Of a stretch of DNA of 64,000 nt, positions 3,362 through 58,982 are shown piece after piece (position 1 is the first letter of the stretch; each line of letters opens with the position of its first letter). A program made the position numbers and the translations under genes. The stretch comes from Lachnospiraceae bacterium. Its GTDB lineage: Bacteria; Bacillota; Clostridia; Lachnospirales; Lachnospiraceae. The notes under the pieces are model-generated. The model was not told the origin of the DNA and did no database searches. It worked only from the letters and a program-made list of their open reading frames with translations. The DNA lies in the NCBI GenBank assembly GCA_017618075.1, contig JAFZUY010000023.1, forward strand, positions 1 through 64,000. Direction: 5' to 3'.

Positions 3362-4180
3362 CTATTTTTTGTATGCCCTATAAAAATGATGCCCGATTCT
3401 GTCCTTCTCCGGCGGAAGAATCATATAATCCCCGTATTCATGACGAAGAACTTCATCATAATGTTTGGGAACCCTGAAACTGTAATTTTCAAACGGCATC
3501 ATAATCGTTTCATCAAACCATTCGCGTTTAAAAATATCCTTTTCTCCCCACGAAAGCCAGATTACACAACCGACAAATTCCGAATCATCATATTCTTTCA
3601 TCCCTGCCAGTTTATCCAGTTTATTCTGAAAGAAATTCTTACCGATTATTTTTGAAATCAAAAATACGGGAAATTTTAACACTTTTCTTATCGGAGATAC
3701 TGTTGTCTCCATCGCAAAATGCTTTCTTGTTGCCTGATAGCAAAGAGAAGAAAGTCTGTCTCCCTTTAATCCGTATTTTACTGCCTCATCTTTCGTTTTT
3801 CCGAGCCCGTCGTAAGGATAAATATCAATAAAAATGCCCATTCCGACGCTTTTTTCATTATCCATCTCCAAAATATAACGATCGTCACTTATACGCGTAA
3901 TCATATAAGGATACTCGGGATGTGTATTACGGTTAAAAACCGTCAGATTCGGCAGCTTATGATCTGAAAGATAATCTAACAGCTGATTATAATCAGGACG
4001 CGGCATCATAATATCCACGTCATCATCCCACGGAATATAACCATGGTGACGAACAGCACCAATCAAAGTTCCGTATATAAGTGCATATCGTAAATTGAGT
4101 TTTTCACAAACATCCGTTATATTTTTTAAAATCTCCAGTGATACTTCCTGTATTTCCCTGGTGGATAATTCTTCTTTCAC
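3362..4180 (-). CDS. licD: LicD-family phosphocholine transferase
   Basis: A 272-residue LicD/FKRP-type nucleotidyltransferase-fold enzyme. The family signature is clear near residue 35: YGTLIGAVRHHGYIPWDDD followed by VDIMMPR, with the metal-binding aspartates. LicD proteins transfer phosphocholine from CDP-choline to a sugar of teichoic acid or another surface glycan, and some relatives transfer other phospho-substituents. The start is GTG at 4180, with GGAGG six bases upstream. It lies between the Wzx flippase and the choline-binding protein in one operon, while the choline kinase, cytidylyltransferase and transporter genes are about 12-16 kb upstream. Phosphocholine is the best-supported donor group; a CDP-phosphonate donor cannot be excluded given the phosphonate genes in the same operon. 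Confidence 0.88.
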   Translation of the reverse strand: MKEELSTREIQEVSLEILKNITDVCEKLNLRYALIYGTLIGAVRHHGYIPWDDDVDIMMPRPDYNQLLDYLSDHKLPNLTVFNRNTHPEYPYMITRISDDRYILEMDNEKSVGMGIFIDIYPYDGLGKTKDEAVKYGLKGDRLSSLCYQATRKHFAMETTVSPIRKVLKFPVFLISKIIGKNFFQNKLDKLAGMKEYDDSEFVGCVIWLSWGEKDIFKREWFDETIMMPFENYSFRVPKHYDEVLRHEYGDYMILPPEKDRIGHHFYRAYKK

Positions 4181-43303: not shown

Positions 43304-43510
43304 TTAGGTTGCACTTTCCTCTGCATCGGCAACTGACAGAATTACATCTGCTTCAGGTGCTTCTTCGGTCGACTCTGCCACAGTTTGAGCGTCCCTAAGA
43401 CTATCCAAAAACGAATCGGACTGCGGAGGTCCGTAAACACAGCCGTTAAGGTTGAGTGCGGCGGAGAAGATTGCTGTGGCTACTACTGCTTTTTTAACTT
43501 CTTTCTTCAT
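43304..43510 (-). CDS. Small lipoprotein with VYGPP motif
   Basis: A 68-residue peptide with a basic start (MKKEVKKAVV), a hydrophobic core and the lipobox LNGC at 21-24, so Cys24 should be lipidated. The mature part begins VYGPPQSDSF and continues as an acidic tail. GGAGG precedes the ATG, and the gene starts 28 bases after glgP on the same strand, ending at its own terminator, so it is real and probably cotranscribed. The VYGPP motif at the mature N-terminus is the same as that repeated eight times in the DUF805 protein at 58026-58982. Its function is unknown. It has only one copy of the motif and no adjacent modifying enzyme. Confidence 0.72.
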   Translation of the reverse strand: MKKEVKKAVVATAIFSAALNLNGCVYGPPQSDSFLDSLRDAQTVAESTEEAPEADVILSVADAEESAT

Positions 43511-56721: not shown

Positions 56722-56898
56722 TTACATCTGATGTCTTACGACTTTGTACTCGTCGCCGCACTGATAATACGGGCACTGATAATGCGAGTCCGTGTTTAAA
56801 CGGATGTAATCGTCTTCGTCCATGCTCACGCAGCAGACATATTCTTCTTCGTCGTCATCGAATACAAAATTTGCACATTCTTCACATGAGATATCCAT
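56722..56898 (-). CDS. DUF6472-like small Cys-rich protein
   Basis: A 58-residue protein, MDISCEECANFVFDDDEEEY to KVVRHQM, with six cysteines (C5, C8, C22, C23, C42, C47). The pattern CxxC...DDDEEEYVCC...DEDDY...CPYY is that of DUF6472, a family of short proteins with possible metal sites found widely in Clostridia. The start is at the ATG at 56898, with AGGAGA upstream; a longer frame to 56931 would overlap the radical SAM gene and lacks a site. It starts eight bases after the radical SAM gene and is surely cotranscribed with it. Function unknown; a partner or iron-sulfur/metal helper for the radical SAM enzyme is one idea. Confidence 0.78.
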   Translation of the reverse strand: MDISCEECANFVFDDDEEEYVCCVSMDEDDYIRLNTDSHYQCPYYQCGDEYKVVRHQM

Positions 56899-56906
56899 AA
56901 TTTCTC

Positions 56907-58004
56907 CTAAAATAAAATACCCTTCATGCACAGATTTGGTTCCATGGTGTCAAAGTTCCAGGTGTGGAAAGAATCTGCGGCACAGAATTTATAATCGGGA
57001 CAGTCGGCACATTTGCCTGTTTTACGAAAATCGTTTCTGAAATTAACGAACTTGTTTTCCCATACTTCTTTTAGGTTATCTGTTCTGATGTTGCCCTGAA
57101 TAAGTTCGGGACGTCTTTCGATATCAAGGCATCCGCCGATATCGCCGTTGTACATGATACTTGCTGTGTAAACGCCTGCGTTACAGAGGAAATACCACTG
57201 TCTGACCTCGCGCTCCATATCTGTACCGAGGTAATGCGAACAGCCGTAGGTAACTTCCATTTCGCTTTCAAATCTCTTTTCGCGGATGAAATCAAACATC
57301 CTTATGTATTCGTCTTTTGAAAGCATCAGTTCTGCATTGTCTTTGGCTCTTCCGATAGGTTCGATATTGATTACACGCCATGAACGAACGCCGACTTTTT
57401 TGAATTCCTCATACATTGCGTCGAGCTCGCCGATGTTTTTATGATAAATAACCGTTGTTATCTGCACATGTGAAATGCCGACTTCGAGCATGTTTTTGAT
57501 GCCCTCTATCGTCTTTTCGTAACATCCGGGCGACTGTCTGAACCATTCGTGGTTTTCCTTTAGACCGTCGACGCTGACGGAAACCGTTCTTAAGCCGGTT
57601 TCTGCGAGCTTTCTGGCGGCTTCCTTGTCTACCAGGGTTCCGTTTGAAGTCATGCCCCAGCCGAAACCAAGCTTGTTTGCCTCATCCATTATTTCAAAAA
57701 AGTCGGTGCGAAGCAGAGGCTCACCGCCTGTTACGCAGAGGCGCATTCTTTTTATGTTGAAATCTCTTTTAACCTGTTTTAATGCAGTTATTATTTCGTC
57801 TTTTGTAAGCATTCCGGACACATCGATATCGCCGCATCTTGAACCGCAGTGCAGGCAGTGCTCATTGCAAAACGGTGTAATTTCCAAGAAAAGAGACCTG
57901 AGCTCCGGATGGGGTCTCAGTGTCTCTTCTCTGTATTCAGCAAGCTGCTGCATATGTTCGTTTTTTATTTTCGCATTCAGTCCGGAGTTGTTTTTCTTTT
58001 TCAT
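56907..58004 (-). CDS. Radical SAM/SPASM-domain protein
   Basis: A radical SAM enzyme of 365 residues from the ATG at 58004 (GGAG upstream; an in-frame TTG at 58016 is less likely). CxxxCxxC as CNEHCLHC (C46, C50, C53) binds the SAM iron-sulfur cluster, followed by VTGGEPLLR and TSNGTL. The C-terminal SPASM region has further cysteines (CNAGVYT, GGCLDIE, CADCPDYKFCA and a final C near NLCMKG) for auxiliary clusters. SPASM enzymes commonly modify peptides or proteins. The gene lies 21 bases downstream of the DUF805-YGPP gene and just before the DUF6472-like gene in one operon, so the repeated YGPP tail is a plausible substrate. This assignment is inferred from context, not from known homology. 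Confidence 0.9.
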   Translation of the reverse strand: MKKKNNSGLNAKIKNEHMQQLAEYREETLRPHPELRSLFLEITPFCNEHCLHCGSRCGDIDVSGMLTKDEIITALKQVKRDFNIKRMRLCVTGGEPLLRTDFFEIMDEANKLGFGWGMTSNGTLVDKEAARKLAETGLRTVSVSVDGLKENHEWFRQSPGCYEKTIEGIKNMLEVGISHVQITTVIYHKNIGELDAMYEEFKKVGVRSWRVINIEPIGRAKDNAELMLSKDEYIRMFDFIREKRFESEMEVTYGCSHYLGTDMEREVRQWYFLCNAGVYTASIMYNGDIGGCLDIERRPELIQGNIRTDNLKEVWENKFVNFRNDFRKTGKCADCPDYKFCAADSFHTWNFDTMEPNLCMKGILF

Positions 58005-58025
58005 TTTTTTCTCCAAACAGGATTT

Positions 58026-58982
58026 TTATTCGAACCAGTCGGGCGGTCCGTAAACCGTCGGCTGCATATTTATATCGACATTGAAATCATCTTCTTCAAG
58101 AGGATCGATATTAAGGCCTTCCGTATCATCATTTCCTTCGAACCACTCGGGAGGGCCGTATACGTCTTCGTTTATATTGACGTCGGGATCGAAATCGTCA
58201 TCATCGTCATCATTAAACCACGAAGGCGGTCCGTATACATTCTGATTGTCATTATTCTGAGGTAAATACTCATCCTCGTCGAAAGGAGGCGGTCCGTACA
58301 TCGGTACAGTATCATTGTTTGAAGGATCGTAATCATCATTACCGTCTTCAATCCATACAGGCGGGCCGTACTCTGTCTGAGGCTCGTTATATGAGGGATC
58401 AAACCAGTCGGGAGGGCCGTATACCCCGTTATTCATATTGTCATCGGGATCGTACGGAGGTCCGTATACATCGTCATTCTGATTGTATGAGGGATCATAC
58501 CATTCGGGTGGTCCGTACACAGACGGCTGAATGTTGTTGGCCGCAAAGAATGCTACTCCTGCCACTGCTGAACCGAGAGCACAGAGGATTAAAAGAATTA
58601 TATGACCGATTCCGACGAATAAAAGAAGGATGGTCCACCAGCCGCTCTTTCCCGCATCACGAAGTCTTCTGACAGTAAGTGCAATCCACGGGATAATTGA
58701 TAAGCCGAGATATATAAGAATCAAAACTGCGGGTATAAGCAGAATAATATGAAGTATCGTTAAAAGAATGGATTCATCAACAAACTCCTGTAAGAGGAAT
58801 ATTCCCGAAGATAAAAGCATACCGAAAAAAGCAAGAATTCCTAAAATAGCATGGAACAGAAAAGCAAACCAGTATTCTTTCCTGGTGCTTGTTCCTTTGT
58901 AATTAAAAATTCCTGCCCATAATCTTATTTGTGCCGAGAAAAAATTTGCGTCTTTTCTTTCCATATTTTTCCCCCACTCCAT
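58026..58982 (-). CDS. DUF805 membrane protein with eight YGPP repeats in its tail
   Basis: A 318-residue protein. Residues about 37-150 are a DUF805 membrane domain: hydrophobic segments at 37-63, 72-103 and 116-147, with the family motif RRLRDAGKSGWW at 105-116. The rest (155-318) is an acidic, Asp/Asn-rich tail with eight copies of YGPP, mostly VYGPPxWF[DEN], at 155, 172, 187, 204, 228, 249, 274 and 310, the last ending the protein as VYGPPDWFE. The DUF805 family normally has no such tail. The first in-frame ATG (58982) has no clear ribosome binding site, while ATG at 58964 has GGAG...GGGGG upstream, so the true start may be six codons later. Nine bases after the acyltransferase gene and 21 bases before the radical SAM gene. 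Confidence 0.82.
   Translation of the reverse strand: MEWGKNMERKDANFFSAQIRLWAGIFNYKGTSTRKEYWFAFLFHAILGILAFFGMLLSSGIFLLQEFVDESILLTILHIILLIPAVLILIYLGLSIIPWIALTVRRLRDAGKSGWWTILLLFVGIGHIILLILCALGSAVAGVAFFAANNIQPSVYGPPEWYDPSYNQNDDVYGPPYDPDDNMNNGVYGPPDWFDPSYNEPQTEYGPPVWIEDGNDDYDPSNNDTVPMYGPPPFDEDEYLPQNNDNQNVYGPPSWFNDDDDDDFDPDVNINEDVYGPPEWFEGNDDTEGLNIDPLEEDDFNVDINMQPTVYGPPDWFE
58029..58520 (-). repeat. Coding repeat region: eight VYGPPxWF units
   Basis: The coding sequence for residues 155-318 of the DUF805 protein holds eight irregular units of 9-36 residues that share YGPP, usually with Trp and Phe or Tyr two to three residues later and acidic linkers. The DNA copies of the core (GT-TAC/TAT-GG-CCN-CC) differ at third positions, so selection acts on the peptide rather than on recent DNA duplication. 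Confidence 0.9.

Follow-up and report, generated by a model that had tools for sequence, protein, structure and literature searches.

A radical SAM/SPASM enzyme paired with YGPP-tagged proteins in Lachnospiraceae, a candidate stand-alone splicease

We analyzed a 64,000-nucleotide stretch of DNA from a Lachnospiraceae bacterium (assembly GCA_017618075.1, contig JAFZUY010000023.1, positions 1 to 64,000; hereafter the window) that encodes a radical S-adenosylmethionine (SAM) enzyme with a SPASM domain next to a DUF805 membrane protein whose tail repeats the motif YGPP. Homologs of this enzyme are accompanied by proteins bearing YGPP units, and this pairing is almost certainly genuine. Because the co-occurrence far exceeds chance, unlinked cases included, the enzyme very probably acts on these units. 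The kinship of the enzyme and the shape of the tag make it reasonably probable that the enzyme is a leaderless, stand-alone splicease working on anchored proteins.

Co-occurrence of the enzyme with YGPP proteins

Close homologs of the enzyme (E ≤ 1e-60) were present in 11 of the 150 family genomes sampled. Of the 10 genomes other than that of the window, six have YGPP proteins within 1.5 kb of the enzyme (L011, L012, L013, L017, L018, and L019), in two its neighbor is a zinc-ribbon protein containing YGPMP or YGPKP (L015 and L016), and two have neither neighbor (L010 and L014). At one further locus (L051), a YGPP lipoprotein adjoins the enzyme. A profile of the tag unit (24 columns, from 40 units hand-picked out of 73, one per locus) was run on the same 150 genomes with the settings of the enzyme search and a threshold of E ≤ 0.01. 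It matches seven genomes, all within the 11 that bear the enzyme, and none of the 139 others (Fisher p = 1.1e-9; this and the next p value are uncorrected for genome relatedness). The zinc-ribbon carrier was found in three genomes, each enzyme-bearing, and either carrier is present in 9 of the 11 enzyme genomes versus 0 of the 139 others (p = 6.6e-13). The two genomes outside this union are G052, whose YGPP lipoprotein (L019) scores below the profile threshold, and G041, which has an enzyme homolog without CxxxCxxC (L014) and no profile match at E ≤ 1. The G041 homolog (L014, 1498-2538) looks as if its system had decayed or changed role.

A scan of named genomes gave 80 loci, the best of 584 relatives; the sample leans to near kin because only these were kept, and it includes close relatives, some from the same assembly or nearly identical, so that the loci are not independent. 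The initial annotation had proposed looking for this radical SAM family beside YGPP proteins across genomes, and a same-strand YGPP open reading frame (ORF) is indeed present in 73 of the 80 loci, with at least two units in 70. By a strict test, it lies just upstream of the enzyme in 66 loci; L077, L082, L091, L095, and L131 miss this test solely through overlapping stop-to-stop frames, and the YGPP ORFs of L106 and L110 are downstream. In ORFs of at least 40 residues, with the enzyme ORF excluded, YGPP occurs 346 times on the enzyme strand versus twice on the opposite strand, and seven permuted motifs reach a maximum of four on either strand. No YGPP was found in 30 control loci, which span 93 kb versus 887 kb for the enzyme loci.

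A nearby YGPP ORF is absent in seven of the 80 loci. One of these, L092, starts inside the enzyme gene, and the other six belong to one clade (L062, L063, L064, L067, L068, and L075). Five of the six genomes of this clade have profile matches elsewhere (G120, as which L075 was counted, G733, G734, G735, and G736), and each of the five encodes, as its unlinked carrier, a DUF805 protein whose tail contains YGPP (L164, L157, L158, L160, and L159). In a separate search of 12 genomes, the profile matched 10. Binding of ions or ligands is common among acidic, Pro-rich repeats, and the tail could in principle be a binding or structural repeat, for metal or the cell wall, with the radical SAM gene an unrelated neighbor. 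However, given the co-occurrence across genomes, which extends to unlinked carriers, and a unit common to different carrier families, we consider this explanation hardly credible.

Among 70 loci surveyed for neighbors (ORFs of at least 90 residues; L052-L061 left out), no further gene is shared by the majority. A further conserved neighbor, such as a protease or an exporter, was considered and rejected: the top cluster, in 13 loci, looks on inspection like a frame antisense to the enzyme gene, and the next is an ABC ATPase in 9 of the 70.

The YGPP unit and its carriers

Over 318 distinct units, the consensus is [FY]xPxxNxxxx[VLI]YGPP. These were collected with YG fixed and Pro required at +2 or +3, and a unit was kept if at least 12 residues stood ahead of its Tyr and at least 14 could be counted starting from it. 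Upstream of the Tyr, the preferred residues are [FY] at -11 (51%), D at -10 (38%), P at -9 (50%), N at -6 (46%), P at -4 (37%), and V, L, or I at -1 (86%). The YG is followed by P (98%), P (91%), and E or P (54%), with no strong preference beyond. On the enzyme strand of the 80 loci, the Tyr is rarely exchanged (FGPP 1, WGPP 0, and HGPP 1, versus 346 YGPP), as is the Gly (YAPP 4, YSPP 1, YDPP 0, and YNPP 0), and the Pro variants YGAP and YGPA occur 11 and 8 times. Opposite-strand counts of the exchanged motifs are mostly 0 to 3, with YSPP at 11, and counts near ten may therefore be background.

The initial annotation had described the units of the DUF805 protein as mostly VYGPPxWF[DEN] and suggested that the enzyme links the Trp to the Asp, Glu, or Asn in a three-residue cyclophane. 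Four of the eight window units (3, 6, 7, and 8) do have WF[DEN] after YGPP, and only four fit the full pattern. Among the 318 units, however, W is found at +5 in 17% and F at +6 in 33%, and many partner proteins have no WF. Since W-F-[DEN] is unconserved across units, such a link is most improbable. Of the earlier idea that the enzyme modifies Tyr, Trp, and Pro in the tail, the connection to the YGPP units is retained and the W-F-[DEN] core is not.

The tag is independent of DUF805, as it is also carried by lipoproteins, dockerin proteins, a zinc-ribbon protein, small peptides, and dihydropteroate synthase. Among 110 non-redundant YGPP ORFs from the 80 loci, seven Pfam families were matched, with Dockerin_1 in 38 and DUF805 in 22; Nif11 was absent among these families, and TIGR04134 was absent from the 14 NCBIfam families matched by the same ORFs (E 0.01). 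The membrane-anchored tail that had been singled out as a novelty thus exists, as one of several arrangements. By a rough lipobox rule, which is a heuristic rather than a trained predictor, 33 of the ORFs were called lipoproteins, and some have no anchor by this rule. Small soluble YGPP peptides were also found (L139, L227, and L228). In the genome of the window, the dihydropteroate synthase (L163:579-1580; Pterin_bind) ends in the tail TFEPPMNEPMCIYGPPEML.

Several carriers have features of their own. A tail of the form FEPPxNEPxx[IV]YGPP, with one complete unit, is shared by the dihydropteroate synthases of the window's genome and of three near relatives (L223, L224, and L225) from the separate set of 12 genomes searched. 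The double zinc-ribbon protein has a YGPxP loop between its ribbons (L165, L180, and L181). CIYGPPEM[LI] or a similar sequence is found in short proteins that lack an obvious signal peptide and are encoded near or distant from the enzyme (L227, L228, L093:5123-5317, L098:4989-5246, L103:4516-4899, and L104:5099-5320). In the Ruminococcus-type loci (L115, L116, L117, L128, L129, and L130), three to eight YGPP ORFs precede the enzyme, many with dockerin-like repeats.

Enzyme kinship and the proposed reaction

Counted from its ATG, the enzyme has 358 residues. It has the superfamily features of radical SAM/SPASM proteins (CxxxCxxC, SPASM cysteines, and fold), which agrees with the initial annotation, and an alignment of 11 sequences shows CNxxCxHCGSxC, six Cys in the SPASM region, and an invariant C248. 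For its AlphaFold2 model (mean predicted local distance difference test score 85.3), the best PDB matches were SkfB, a sactipeptide maturase (5why), BlsE, DesII, SuiB, and PqqE; no solved splicease structure was recognized in this search. Its best NCBIfam match is TIGR04133 (288 bits), a family that gave two matches at E 1e-60 in 398 genomes of the phylum, and lower scores were obtained for AhbD (151), NirJ2 (137), TIGR04053 (135), TIGR04103 (125.3), and WgkB (124.7). We take PlpX itself to belong to TIGR04103.

We built trees that have arbitrary roots, a thin sample, long MftC and NirJ branches, and no representative of WgkB. In the first, the PlpX/GDL group stands beside the YGPP enzymes and TIGR04133 with support of 89/97. 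In the second, which gained four rows of NirJ2 and one AhbD-like row and lost PqqE and three YGPP rows, a group of 27 is split from the nine others at 99/97, and the enzyme joins TIGR04133 at 100/98. Gly47 of CxHCG is present in 27/27 ingroup versus 0/9 outgroup rows.

In published reports, PlpX works with PlpY, a protein with a RiPP (ribosomally synthesized and post-translationally modified peptide) recognition element (RRE; PMC11002830); PlpXY spliceases remove tyramine at XYG, converting the X, and the sequence PIRPGYGLPI is functional in some tagged proteins (PMC10533398). Protease inhibition by splicease products has also been reported (PMC10373908 and PMC11117315), and 27 other characterized and 939 predicted systems are named in this literature. 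The XYG of PlpX-type substrates is also found in the YGPP partners, where X is mostly V, L, or I. In Nostoc sp. C057, a radical SAM enzyme that matches TIGR04103 at 853 bits is directly preceded by a Nif11 precursor ending in IALYGLPPELF and followed by a 71-residue ORF. TIGR04133 enzymes lie downstream of a TIGR04134 lipoprotein in Parabacteroides and Treponema and upstream of it in Phocaeicola, and these lipoproteins bear CEYGSP, CYGMP, and CEYGTP, respectively. As far as their sequences tell, xYGxP is common to TIGR04133, the Nostoc TIGR04103 system, and the YGPP family, and is not shared by all sister enzymes. In the three lipoproteins (L166, L167, and L168), YG-x-P stands at the lipid cysteine or adjoins it, and the same modification site is predicted.

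On the splicease reading, the enzyme would recognize [FY]xPxxN-x4-[VLI]YGPP in line, in unfolded tails. Radical SAM enzymes require the reduced cytoplasm, and we infer for this reason that the reaction would take place there, before export. The Tyr would be excised from the backbone at [V/L/I]-Tyr-Gly, leaving a reactive X-ketoamide-Gly-Pro-Pro, with a predicted mass change of -135.068 Da per site and of up to -1080.55 Da for the eight sites of the window protein. Tagged proteins would then either remain soluble or be displayed on the surface, held there by a lipid, a dockerin, or the DUF805 membrane domain. The ketoamides may serve as tethered protease-inhibiting or covalent groups; protease inhibition at the surface or on the cellulosome is our guess as to their use, made because inhibition by the products has been reported for known spliceases.

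Several observations weigh against this reading. The enzyme falls below the cut-offs of both TIGR04133 (425 bits) and TIGR04103 (725 bits), and the cross-linking family WgkB ties with TIGR04103; since AhbD, NirJ2, and TIGR04053 also outscore TIGR04103, scores alone cannot single out the splicease family. In a third tree, with four PapB-like rows added, the grouping with PlpX was kept in the best tree, but at a lower support of 93/88, which is not a starred value. A WgkB row for the tree was sought and found in 0 of 299 genomes, in a search that also gave no control match. No PlpY or other RRE partner was found among neighbors of at least 90 residues in the 70 loci, a survey that did not cover shorter ORFs. 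The xYG motif is present in one of the three leader-type precursors of the Nostoc stretch, the one beside the enzyme; the GDL branch has no conserved YG, with LYA, MYA, and PYG in the three Aureibacter peptides (hence YG in one of three) and MYM in Azospirillum. Two genomes, G737 of the six-locus clade and G748, have the enzyme and no profile match. Finally, YGPP alone is insufficient as a signal, because it also occurs in two AAA ATPases of the window's genome, by eye in the P-loops of RuvB and RarA (LLYGPPGLGKTT and LIFYGPPGCGKTT). The lower support in the added tree and the tie between WgkB and TIGR04103 reduced our confidence in the splicease assignment.

Two other reactions have to be weighed at this point. 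The enzyme could make another radical SAM change at the Tyr or the X, such as oxidation, epimerization, side-chain loss, or a decarboxylation-like reaction, as the higher scores of AhbD and NirJ2 would allow. However, the motif common with the XYG of a proven splicease and the sister position in the trees argue otherwise, and we judge such a change rather unlikely. It could also cross-link Tyr to Pro at -2 Da per unit, either by a ring within Y-G-P (a three-residue cyclophane from the Tyr ring to a Pro carbon) or in some other way. YGP is an aromatic-X-X sequence with its Pro nearly invariant, SPASM enzymes form such links, and WgkB scores level with TIGR04103. On the other hand, known cyclophane enzymes take Trp or Phe, whereas the Tyr is hardly exchanged here, and the nearest sampled kin of TIGR04133 and PlpX type have YGLP, YGSP, YGTP, and YGMP, in which +2 is not Pro, although the trees contain no WgkB row; a Y-G-P cross-link therefore appears unlikely.

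If the enzyme is a splicease, it would resemble PlpX/PlpXY in its probable place, judged from the thinly sampled trees, as a sister radical SAM/SPASM group, in the CxHCGS motif, in substrates with XYG (YGxP in the cases seen), and in several sites per substrate. It would differ in having neither a visible Nif11 or NHLP leader nor a detected PlpY, in taking lipoproteins, membrane proteins, dockerin proteins, and housekeeping proteins as substrates, and in the FxPxxN found upstream of many sites. The TIGR04133/TIGR04134 systems of Bacteroidota and Treponema are the closest family, with an adjacent lipoprotein bearing YGxP near the lipid Cys in the three cases fetched; the window likewise encodes a lipoprotein of this kind, from a gene that is not beside the enzyme (Table 1). 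These systems have one YGxP at the lipid Cys, whereas the YGPP system has up to eight units, a wider carrier set, and no TIGR04134 carriers. The cross-linking systems (cyclophane enzymes, WgkB, and DynA) share the type of enzyme and repeated aromatic cores, in contrast to the strict Tyr and unconserved W-F-[DEN] of the YGPP units. Cellulosomal protease inhibitors borne on dockerins would be comparable in combining a dockerin with a possible inhibitor group, but the inhibitor here would be a backbone ketoamide and not a folded domain.

On an Agathobacter rectalis plasmid (L170, ~3722-3934), a 35-residue ORF ending in VMYGTGVRM lies just before a PlpX-related radical SAM gene, and judging from its sequence it is possibly an unannotated splicease precursor.

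The window locus and wider significance

Three genes of the window form a minus-strand run, as first described, with gaps of 42 and 8 bases (Table 1). The YGPP units of the DUF805 protein, also described correctly, are at residues 156, 173, 188, 205, 229, 250, 275, and 311, and its 171-residue tail is acidic, with 45 Asp or Glu and no Lys or Arg. We infer from the positive loops (RRLRDAGK ahead of the last membrane helix) that the tail probably lies outside the cell. This protein matched no NCBIfam family, and DUF805 proteins similar to it adjoin the enzyme in L052-L061.

Table 1. Genes and features of the window discussed in the text
Feature	Positions	Strand	Details
DUF805 membrane protein with acidic C-terminal YGPP tail, predicted substrate	58026..58982	-	318 aa; Pfam DUF805 7.4e-17
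YGPP tail, from residue 148 of the DUF805 protein	58026..58541	-	[FY]xPxxNxxxx[VLI]YGPP-type units
Radical SAM/SPASM enzyme, predicted stand-alone splicease	56907..57983	-	Radical_SAM 4e-26; SPASM 1.7e-9; alignment; trees
DUF6472 protein	56722..56898	-	58 aa; Pfam 1.1e-23; probably outside the system
Second predicted substrate, lipoprotein	43307..43510	-	68 aa; lipobox LNGC, VYGPP directly after

The DUF6472 gene had been counted as part of the system. Of 92 loci, 11 have it next to the enzyme, and these are confined to the window and its closest relatives, whereas DUF6472 matches were found in 86 of 196 genomes of the order and the enzyme was near none of 30 such loci fetched. We therefore rejected it as a partner and regard it as an incidental neighbor that is widespread without the enzyme. 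The lipoprotein has a near-identical counterpart in G738 (L226), and a carbohydrate phosphorylase gene precedes its gene on the same strand.

Our literature search, in a collection poor in subscription journals, found no publication on TIGR04133, VYGPP, YGPP with radical SAM, or DUF6472, and TIGR04134 is not named among the matches listed for Bacteroides radical SAM and lipoprotein literature. Scott and colleagues reportedly predicted 939 splicease systems in 2022, and the YGPP family may be among them; unless it is, the enzyme assignment may be new, and if it is, the novelty would be limited to the carriers.

The broadest form of the proposal is that one stand-alone splicease rewrites the backbones of several proteins that have nothing in common but the cell they are made in, namely, an eight-site membrane protein, lipoproteins, cellulosomal dockerin proteins, a zinc-ribbon protein, and the dihydropteroate synthase tail, giving anchored ketoamide arrays. 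We put this forward tentatively, at slightly less than an even chance. If it is true, a portable tag of about 15 residues, single or arrayed, would be read by a stand-alone enzyme, and the pair may be of use in protein chemistry. The DUF805-tail, dockerin, and lipoprotein carriers, which still lack an explanation, would gain a testable role, and the TIGR04133/TIGR04134 lipoprotein systems a chemical prediction. Ordinary envelope proteins in Clostridia of the rumen and gut would then have backbone editing to beta-amino acids as an inherent feature, and such general tagging would represent a routine post-translational modification of the backbone and not a RiPP natural product.

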